Source of the DNA: Sulfurovum sp. | Lineage (GTDB): Bacteria; Campylobacterota; Campylobacteria; Campylobacterales; Sulfurovaceae | NCBI GenBank assembly: GCA_027019175.1 | Contig: JALUXB010000069.1 | Coordinates: 1 to 36,900 of the forward strand | DNA: 36,900 bases | Reading direction: 5' to 3' | In this document: positions 30,606-34,921 of the stretch, one piece after another | Layout: each line of letters starts with the position of its first letter | Position numbering within the stretch: position 1 is the first letter of the stretch | Position numbers and translations under genes: made by a program | Notes under the pieces: model-generated | Seen by the model: only the letters and a program-made list of their open reading frames with translations | Told to the model about the DNA's origin: nothing | Databases searched by the model: none

Positions 30606-31806
30606 CAAACGACCACTGCAGGTTGTAGCCGCCGCAGGGACCGTCAAGGTTGACCACTTCTCCGCAGAAATAAAGCCCGTTTAGTTTCCGGCTTTGCATT
30701 GTGTAGGGGTCTATCTCTTTGAGGCTTACTCCGCCGCGGGTGATCATGGCCATTTTGAAACCCTCGTGTCCGTTGACGGTCAACGGTGTGGCCACAAGGA
30801 GTTTAAAAAGTCTGTCGCGTGCTGCACCCTGCTGCTTTGCCAGTGTACGTTCAGGGTTACAGCCGGCAAGTGTACACAATACCAGCGAGAGTGACCGGGG
30901 GAGCAGTGTTTCAAGCATTTCAAGCAATGTAATCTGCGGGTTTTTTCTGATCTGTTCTTTGAAGTGACTGCGTATCTCTTCTTCATTCATCCCTTTGGTG
31001 AAGTTCGCTGTCAAGGGTACTTCGTCAAACTTTGCCAATAGCGGGGTGATCTCCCGTGAGAAGTCAAGCACCACAGGCCCCCGGATGCCCTCTTTGGTAA
31101 AGATGAGATCACCGGTAGCATGCAGTTTTCGGTACTTTTTGATCGCCACGCGCAGCTCAACTTTGGGCAGTGTGTCCGCACGGCAGTTGGCAACCCACTT
31201 CTCTTTGGTCTTTAGCGGCATCATAGCCGGATGCAGCGGTGTCACAGTGTGGCCAATGGATTGGGCTATGGTGTAGCCGTCTCCCTCTGCACCAAGCACG
31301 GGGTAGCCTTTTCCTCCGGTTGCAATAATGACATGCGAAGCACTGAACGTTTCCTTTTCCGTCTTTACCCCTGTCACTGTACTGCCGTCATGCTCTATGG
31401 AAACAATACGCGCTTTGCACTGCACTTCCACACCCACACGCTGCATCTCTTTTTCCATCGCTTCGACAATGGTGGCGGCACTGTGGGTAAGAGGAAAAAC
31501 ACGAAAGCCATCCGGTGCATGGGTCGGCACACCGATGTTCTCGAAGAAATCGGTAAGTGCATGATGATCGAAAGCATCAAGAGCAGGCATCATGAACTTG
31601 CCGTCACGTCCAAAACGGCTCATAAATGTTTCATTGTCCAGTGTATTGGTCAGGTTGCATCGTCCGCCGCCTGTGGCTTTGAGCTTCGCACCGATTTTGG
31701 AAAGTTTTTCAAGCAGCAGTACCCGTTTTCCACTGCGTGCGGCGGTAATGGCAGCCATCATCCCTGCTGCCCCGGCTCCTGCAATAAGTATGTCATACTG
31801 TTTCAT
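30568..31806 (-). CDS. BaiN/HI0933-family NAD(P)/FAD-dependent oxidoreductase
   Basis: 412 residues from ATG 31806; the longer frame to 31875 adds an unlikely N-terminus. FAD motif IAGAGAAGMMAAITAARSG (residues 8-26), then LLEKLSKIGAKLKATGGGRCNLTNT, which is the HI0933-like signature, IATGGKGYPVLGAEGDGY, and the closing GLYFCGEVVNLDGPCGGYNLQWSFASG. The physiological substrate of this family is mostly unknown. Convergent overlap of 38 bases with the histidine kinase gene at the 3' end. Confidence 0.9.
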   Translation of the reverse strand: MKQYDILIAGAGAAGMMAAITAARSGKRVLLLEKLSKIGAKLKATGGGRCNLTNTLDNETFMSRFGRDGKFMMPALDAFDHHALTDFFENIGVPTHAPDGFRVFPLTHSAATIVEAMEKEMQRVGVEVQCKARIVSIEHDGSTVTGVKTEKETFSASHVIIATGGKGYPVLGAEGDGYTIAQSIGHTVTPLHPAMMPLKTKEKWVANCRADTLPKVELRVAIKKYRKLHATGDLIFTKEGIRGPVVLDFSREITPLLAKFDEVPLTANFTKGMNEEEIRSHFKEQIRKNPQITLLEMLETLLPRSLSLVLCTLAGCNPERTLAKQQGAARDRLFKLLVATPLTVNGHEGFKMAMITRGGVSLKEIDPYTMQSRKLNGLYFCGEVVNLDGPCGGYNLQWSFASGYLAGRAASS

Positions 31807-31847
31807 GGCTGCAATCATAGCGAAATTCCCCATTATTTGCCCAAAGA

Positions 31848-32011
31848 GTTTCACTCGATGGCGACAAAGGAGCACTCAGCCCGAAGGGCGGCCAGCCTTC
31901 ACGGCTTCGCATACGCTCCGACCGTTTCGGTTACGAAGCTACGAAAGCAAAGCAGTTTGCTTTCGTTTTACGCTTCTCACATTTGCGACTGCCAGAGCTA
32001 TCGAGTGAAAC
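31848..32011. repeat. 164-base element bounded by 12-base perfect inverted repeats
   Basis: GTTTCACTCGAT at 31848-31859 pairs with ATCGAGTGAAAC at 32000-32011. Inside are further palindromes: a 10-bp stem with GCAG loop (31942-31951 with 31956-31965) followed by TTTT, a GCCC-GAA-GGGC hairpin, and a GGAGC/GCTCC pair. No ORF fits it. The layout suggests a non-autonomous mobile repeat (MITE-like) or a structured RNA. A copy-number search would decide. Confidence 0.6.
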
Positions 32012-32184
32012 GACCTATACATTAACATTTGGTTAAACTACCCGGCGTATACTGCGGTCAACCCTTCCCAGATGCAATGTTTAAACTCCTCCCTTTCAAA
32101 AACATAAGGGCATTTTTTCCTTGTTATGTCCAAAAACATTCTTCTTCCTTTCCCTGGGGAAGGGGGCTTTAGAAAAACAGTCGC

Positions 32185-33943: not shown

Positions 33944-34921
33944 CTACGCCATCATATCCAACGGGCTCATAACTTTTGCCTTGTTCATCTCTGCAACTAC
34001 ATGTGTATAGACCATCGTTGTTTCTACCGACTTGTGACCCAGTAACTCCTGAATGCTTCTAAGATCAATGCCGCTTTGCAGCAGGTGTGTAGCGTAGGAG
34101 TGTCGGAAGATGTGGGAGGTGACGCGTTTGTTGAGGTTTGCTTTTTTAGCTGCCTCTTTGATGTTTCTACCAACTGTTTGAGGGTGTAAGTGGTGTCTTC
34201 TTCGCTCTTTGCTGCGTGGGTCAGTGGAGATATTTTTCATAGGAAAGAGATACTGCCATTTGGTTTCATATTTGGCATTGGGGTACTTTTTGCTCAATGC
34301 GTATGGAATAAAAACCCTCCCATACCCGGCTTTAAGATCTTCTTGATGTAACTGCGTTACTTTCTCTACCTGCTCTAAAAGTTTTGTTTTGAGACTTTGC
34401 GGTAGCGGTACGGTTCTGTCTTTTAACGATTTTGAGTCCCAAATGTAGATTTTGTCAAACCCAAAGTCTATGTCTTTGACGCGAAGGTTCAAGGCTTCAT
34501 TCATCCTGAGTCCACACCCATACATGAGATGGGTAATGAGGCTATATTCGCTTGGAATGTGCAACAATATCTTTCGCACCTCCTCCTTGATCAATACTAC
34601 GGGAATACGCTTTCTTTCCTGTGCCCTCAGTGCCTGAATGTCCCACTTGCTTATGTCGATGCCCAAAACTTCTCTGTATAAAAACAGTAATGCGCTGAAA
34701 GCCTGATTTTGTGTCGTAGGTGATACTTTTTCCTTTACTGCCAACTTTGTCAGAAATTGTTCAATGTGTACTTTCTCCAGTTTTATCGGGTGTGTTTTAT
34801 TATGAAATAAGATGTAGTGTTTGATCCAATGTACATAGGTACGTTCGGTTGAGTAACTGTAGTGCTTCAAGCGTATTTTTTCCCGTACGATGTCTAAGAG
34901 CTTTTTCTTTTTCTCGCCCAT
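33944..34921 (-). CDS. intI: IntI-type integron integrase (tyrosine recombinase)
   Basis: 325 residues. Catalytic residues are complete: R139 ([10 protein letters not shown]), K167 (SLKDR), H270 and R273 ([15 protein letters not shown]), H296 ([10 protein letters not shown]), Y305 (VYTHV). The SAM-like N-terminal DNA-binding domain carries [20 protein letters not shown]. Residues about 200-247 ([13 protein letters not shown] ... [19 protein letters not shown]) are the extra segment that sets IntI apart from XerC/D and binds folded attC sites. Closing KVMSPLD also matches IntI. AGGAG lies eight bases before the ATG. The enzyme should insert and excise gene cassettes by attI x attC recombination. 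It reads leftwards, away from the ABC-3C-like genes. Confidence 0.9.

Follow-up and report, generated by a model that had tools for sequence, protein, structure and literature searches.

A palindrome in a Sulfurovum spacer as a probable degenerate copy of a modular, nested mobile element

Between an HI0933-like flavoprotein gene on the minus strand and a divergent methyltransferase gene on the plus strand (from 32220), a contig of Sulfurovum sp. carries a palindrome of 164 bases, and the question raised by this locus is what kind of element the palindrome is. The window, meaning the whole stretch of 36,900 nucleotides that was analyzed, had been given a sequence-only reading that placed the palindrome at 31848-32011 with perfect 12-base arms, and both details held when the sequence was re-read. 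The palindrome starts GTTTCACTCGAT and ends ATCGAGTGAAAC, and its arms reach 15 nt at 93% identity. Perfect 12-bp inverted pairs spaced 60-200 nt apart are uncommon in this DNA, with two in the window and a mean of 0.4 in 40 shuffles. The nested hairpins described earlier are present, including a perfect inner 11-bp hairpin (31941-31951 / 31956-31966), as is the TTTT, at 31966-31969. Folding of 31836-32023 gave z = -5.1 for RNA of the plus strand and z = -4.6 for DNA of the minus strand. The mechanically called flavoprotein frame extends to 31875 from a GTG; an ATG near 31806 is the likely start.

The sequence-only reading had offered three guesses, a MITE, a REP-type cluster and a small structured RNA. 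Each catches part of the element: around other copies the outer unit is MITE-like, with terminal repeats bordered by 4-bp duplications; the inserted part is palindromic, dispersed and REP-like; and both modules show covarying structure. None of the three is right alone, however, as one repeat is nested within another. We consider the window feature to be a degenerate copy of a mobile element that is modular, nested, non-autonomous and MITE- or BOX-like, with a probability of about 0.7.

Composition of the palindrome

Judged by what matches where, the element is a composite of two repeat families, an outer module M and an inner module I in the loop of M (Table 1). We use M for the outer part, 82 nt without the insert, and I for the inner part. 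Searched against its own genome, the palindrome had further matches for nothing but its outer 45 and 30 bases, at the spacing of an 82-nt element. Matches came from 23 of the 60 genomes searched (its own included); some covered the whole palindrome, others its outer part, and many just the inner part. These copies, with M and I matched separately in the own genome and in relatives, exclude the single unconserved sequence that the sequence-only reading had set against its own proposal.

The orthologous spacers of genomes G079, G067 and G009 hold M without I, in the same AGCCCGAA variant, so at the window site I would have entered an M already in place, once this lineage had separated from the nearest relatives in the comparison. 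In a fourth relative, G002, the orthologous spacer lacks the element without being a clean empty site, as ~195 bases are replaced by 12 others. This allele may be an empty site or a deletion; on our reading its 12-base replacement looks like the right end of the unit O described below. The GA dinucleotide reported at both ends of the palindrome is there, but it is not a target duplication, because the bases adjoining the arms at these positions are G and C, lengthening the stem, in 70 of 74 related M copies.

Table 1. Features of the palindrome and of its two modules, in window coordinates
Feature	Position	Strand	Basis
Composite, M interrupted by I	31848..32011	+	Separate matches of outer and inner parts; orthologous sites without I
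M, left arm of stem P1 (partner 31997-32011)	31848..31862	+	Compensatory changes in alignment
M, conserved unpaired GACAAA	31863..31868	+	Alignment
M, left arm of P2, GGAGCA (partner 31984-31989)	31869..31874	+	Alignment, covariation
M, hairpin P3 (CCCGAAGGG)	31880..31888	+	Alignment, covariation
M, left arm of P4, CGGC (partner replaced by I here)	31889..31892	+	Comparison with orthologs L143-L145
Module I, inserted in P4 loop of M	31895..31979	+	R3 match, 104 bits; absent at orthologous site in G079, G067 and G009
I, hairpin A	31895..31931	+	I alignment and structure
I, stem B (31935-31939 / 31972-31976) around hairpin c (31942-31951 / 31956-31965)	31935..31976	+	I alignment and structure
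M, right arm of P2, TGCGAC	31984..31989	+	Alignment
M, conserved unpaired TGCCAGA	31990..31996	+	Alignment
M, right arm of stem P1	31997..32011	+	Arm pairing

Folds and distribution of the two modules

Module M is dispersed in Sulfurovum and a sister genus, and I sits in the P4 loop of about one quarter of the other copies. The 74 paired M copies studied come from loci fetched in four genomes (G000, G002, G009 and G032); 53 measure 80-84 nt and 21 measure 153-168 nt, and I was detected by pattern in 20 of the 21 long copies (three under another locus name). As in a MITE, the copies are multiple, with up to ~30 per genome, 80-168 nt in length and without coding capacity. Under strict search filters, and with an M model that misses copies containing I, M was found in 31 of 78 Sulfurovum genomes and in 8 of 298 genomes sampled from the phylum, which belong to three genera and include two with weak matches only. 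Among named genomes, 27 stretches, all from Sulfurovum, fit an exact M pattern; these records are metagenome assemblies. At L236 (G149:C1:222341-223051), a 111-nt M match has its P4 region replaced by unrelated sequence that is not I.

M consists of a stem P1 of ~16 pairs that encloses, in order, GACAAA, the first strand of stem P2, CYCAA, two hairpins (P3 and P4), the second strand of P2 and TGCCAGA. Covariance analysis of the hairpins, which the sequence-only reading had proposed as a check, revealed strong compensatory changes in both modules. In an alignment of 28 M sequences, four of which belong to other species and have unrelated P1 stems, pairing holds in 94.1% of cells and both sides have changed in 17 of 29 pairs, which none of 500 shuffles reached; 10 of the 38 sequences first aligned had been dropped, mainly for another P3-P4 form, and none was chosen by pairing. 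Near-perfect stems are built from unrelated sequence in different species, and unpaired bases are conserved across species. For P2 the paired share falls to 79.2% of cells, since GGAGCA/TGCGAC, which by our reading could form tandem G-A pairs, is present in many copies. The P1 stems of the 74 copies contain 92 G-T pairs against 9 A-C pairs (30 against 9 without the commonest state of each pair), and the minority states of the whole structure in the 28 sequences are 23 G-T against 10 A-C. Because of this excess, the fold of one strand of M seems to be favored, though the copies are not independent.

Module I is spread more widely, being detected under similarly strict filters in 56 of the 298 genomes sampled from the phylum and 29 of 58 genera, alone or in tandem, and in several genomes it forms head-to-tail arrays with a period of ~82-84 bp. 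The arrays at L212, L216 and L215 consist of units of ~82-84 bp or shorter partial units with no genes between them, and near-identical copies at L277-L279 and L281-L283 (G053 and G124) adjoin what by inspection is the apparent end of a tRNA gene. The fold of I is two hairpins in which 97.3% of cells pair and 11 of 23 pairs show double changes. No shuffle of 500 reached these pairing and covariation values, whereas 146 of 500 reached the number of further pair types; the structure, which replaced a first one, was suggested partly by RNAalifold on the same alignment and is to that extent fitted to it. There is no G-T excess in I (minority states 4 G-T against 10 A-C). Relatedness of the copies and palindrome repair may have contributed to the covariation of both modules.

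Such folds suggest another explanation, that M, and I with it, are structured RNAs with a function in the host, as small RNAs or protein-binding sites, and that their mobile spread is secondary. The covariation of both modules, the G-T excess in P1 and the conserved unpaired bases of M argue for it, as do antisense M copies with compensated stems at two sites. One lies between a TPR (batE-like) gene and batD in G083, G013, G020, G025 and G022, the other beside gltX in G021, G077 and G074; batD and TPR were assigned by Pfam for G013, and the remaining gene names are presumed from sequence likeness. The stems differ, most at the batD site, yet they pair, those of G083 and G022 being nearly the same, and O ends are not visible at either site. 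M looks long maintained here, and these copies are the best evidence that it may be kept for its fold. Against a host RNA stand the up to ~30 copies per genome, the lack of a G-T excess in I, the flips in place described below, and Rfam, which gave no match in the window at gathering scores and none even at E 5 in six loci. Orientation to genes is also even, the neighbor-gene arrangements numbering 17, 17, 16 and 13 in the 63 of 74 copies with both neighbors called, and a cis-regulatory RNA of the neighboring genes was rejected on this count. Host-selected structured RNAs are, in our judgment, an unlikely account of the element. By the raw calls of a simple ORF caller, 12 of the 74 copies lie inside an open frame.

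The outer unit and the movement of the modules

In G321, a genome of another genus, most M copies lie within a sharply bounded 131-bp unit, O, with the layout (AATN)GAACCCTCTGAAAAA...M...TTTTTCAGAGCACTC(AATN). O, which surrounds many copies of M, is ~131 bp long with 15-bp terminal inverted repeats, GAnnnCTCTGAAAAA, in G321 and its relatives, giving the family the terminal repeats of a MITE. Identical 4-bp flanks border 12 of 31 O units, against 4.7 when right flanks were permuted (p 0.0004). Leaving aside units flanked by AATT on both sides, duplications are found in 8 of 27 against 2.8 (p 0.002), and the 26 units with M have 11 against 3.8 expected. Duplications of 2, 3, 5 or 6 bp were not in excess among the 31 units, which were filtered to one row per copy after false ends from M's own CTCTGGC motif had been removed. 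The target duplications of a MITE are therefore found in the family, in copies other than that of the window.

Compared with a reversed control, the O end motif scored 20 to 0 in G321, 13 to 0 in G090 and 5 to 0 in G066, then 3 to 1 in G002, 2 to 1 in G091, 1 to 1 in G067 and 1 to 0 in G000, and the exact motif was absent from G009 and G079. With exact-motif scores of 0-1, G009, G079 and some other genomes are judged to have a degenerate O. Clear O ends are also missing from the window copy, which for this reason is probably no longer mobile. The contents of O also vary. The same ends enclose, at L263, L264 and L265 in G321, pairs of unrelated palindromes instead of M in units of 130-131 bp, which we take from their resemblance to be of CGTC type, and in L271 they enclose a 66-bp interior; G149 has a closely similar M bounded by outer ends of another kind.

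Among the fetched loci no transposase or autonomous element with O ends was recognized. The ends of two G090 contigs, L270 and L274, break ~120 bases into a sequence beginning with an O end. These breaks would fit a longer multicopy element, possibly an autonomous partner, and a search of 175 genomes gave the candidate sequence no match outside its own. The exact pattern matched nothing in viral contigs, phages gave no match either, and among plasmids one Sulfurovum record weakly matches part of I.

Two other enzymes were considered. The first would make the element a REP mobilized by a RAYT, and the window's genome does contain a RAYT-like gene (NF047646 at 72.7 bits, below the cut-off of 80). 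The RAYT-like Y1 transposase, of 256 aa, was located at L108:1947-2717 (-) (G000:C30:7449-8216), and relatives occur in 42 of the 78 genomes of the genus. They are present in 18 of the 31 M-bearing genomes and in 24 of the 47 that lack M, and RAYT was rejected as partner for this lack of association. None was found in the M-rich G066, G090 and G032, though these genomes are incomplete; no M lies beside the gene in the stretch read, and neither M nor I carries a GTAG tag by inspection. Four-bp duplications are moreover not expected of Y1 transposition, and movement by a RAYT is highly improbable.

The second enzyme is an integron integrase 2 kb away (33944-34921; TIGR02249, 417 bits), whose presence would suit an attC site of that integron. 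The sites are bounded by boxes of the consensus RYYYAAC / GTTRRRY, and inspection of the element showed nothing like them. Copies are scattered rather than arrayed, and the 5.2 kb fetched next to the G009 ortholog of the element contains no relative of the integrase. On these three grounds the attC identity was rejected, and we give it practically no credence. No attC was seen by eye in two short stretches of the integrase region. The integrase gene, on the minus strand, diverges from ABC-three-component-like genes at the contig end (35218-36868, plus strand), in which CTD7 falls just below its cut-off and MC3 above.

Sister genomes offer a view of change at single sites. Fourteen orthologous sites carry the element in both of two genomes (17 rows minus 3 in which two neighboring elements share one spacer). 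I is present in one partner and absent from the other in 4 of the 14 pairs, and the M core is inverted between the same flanks in 3 of them. For two of the inverted pairs, L055/L077 and L054/L038, a flip in place is indicated by an uncommon stem variant that both partners have. Misassembly would be an unlikely, though possible, source of such differences in the short copies. A score of the orientation of M relative to O gave 23 canonical, 2 inverted and 49 undecided among the 74 copies; the two scored as inverted are both at one orthologous site, and the three inverted pairs above were not singled out by this score.

Inversion in place would also suit a neutral palindrome, with arms kept alike by template-switch repair, a loop that flips by recombination between the arms and a fold that is unselected. 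The near-perfect stems of unrelated sequence in different species are consistent with this, and so is the behavior of the flanks beyond the stem, which were rejected as part of the covarying fold: own flanks pair no better than swapped ones (permutation p 0.14), and their similarity is shared sequence. The one-strand excess of G-T over A-C in P1, the unpaired bases conserved across species and the 4-bp duplications tell against neutrality, and we hold it to be very unlikely.

For the preferred reading, a modular mobile element, we propose that a transposase acting in trans on the O ends would have spread O-M and O-M-I, and that insertions would survive mainly between genes. The long stems would extrude as hairpins or cruciforms, which may lead to inversion in place and to the exchange of loop modules.

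Significance and relation to known systems

The nesting of I within M seen in Sulfurovum and the sister genus is reversed in G053 and G129, genomes of another family with weak M matches (E about 4e-5). Here the P3-P4 core of M lies in the loop of a stem with the GCTA...TTAACGC asymmetry of I, inside a longer inverted repeat; this reciprocal nesting is known from these two related sequences only. It raises a broader idea, which we put forward tentatively and think on the whole doubtful, that M and I are interchangeable folded modules that nest in each other's loops and flip, as substrates of some recombination or mobility system of Campylobacterota. If this is true, and the fold of one M strand is selected, the substrates would be single-stranded DNA or RNA.

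The family as we interpret it would be a MITE-like bacterial system in which structured modules nest, swap between outer ends and flip, with module gain, loss and inversion visible on comparison of close genomes. Two questions become testable: whether selection on the fold or template switching keeps the arms of a palindrome paired over long periods, and what enzyme in Campylobacterota mobilizes folded repeats that carry no genes. The family also advises caution, as RNA-like motifs that covary may, in such genomes, be mobile DNA.

Literature searches limited to open-licence papers brought up no title or abstract opening with a description of M or I. Both are new families of a recognizable kind of element, the published GTAG and CGTC REPs having been compared by description only, and parts of I or of the O interiors may already be among the published Sulfurovum families of these types. 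In architecture, the only basis of the comparison, the element resembles the BOX elements of Streptococcus pneumoniae and S. suis, which are described as dispersed, folded, gene-less composite repeats with inner modules that are present, absent or repeated (PMC3049150). The same source reports repeats that insert into one another and, in S. suis, different outer modules around the same inner one, much as two kinds of outer end surround M (PMC3049150). Unlike the inner modules of BOX, I also stands alone across the phylum, and M is inverted in place.

With MITEs the family shares terminal inverted repeats, short target duplications, many copies, a lack of coding capacity and an intergenic location. 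It differs in that no partner insertion sequence was found in the fetched loci and in that its interior, a branched and conserved fold, is swapped from one kind of outer end to another. A likeness to the GTAG and CGTC REPs is suggested by the sequences resembling the CGTC type inside the same O ends as M, and by inspection the CGTC tag outside the stem is absent from M and I. REPs of both types are reported in Sulfurovum (PMC3733652), and are like M and I dispersed palindromic repeats of the same genus. They are described there as repeats of 20-40 bp with the tag outside the stem (PMC3733652), and this description sets them apart from M and I, which are 82-85 nt long and fold into several helices.
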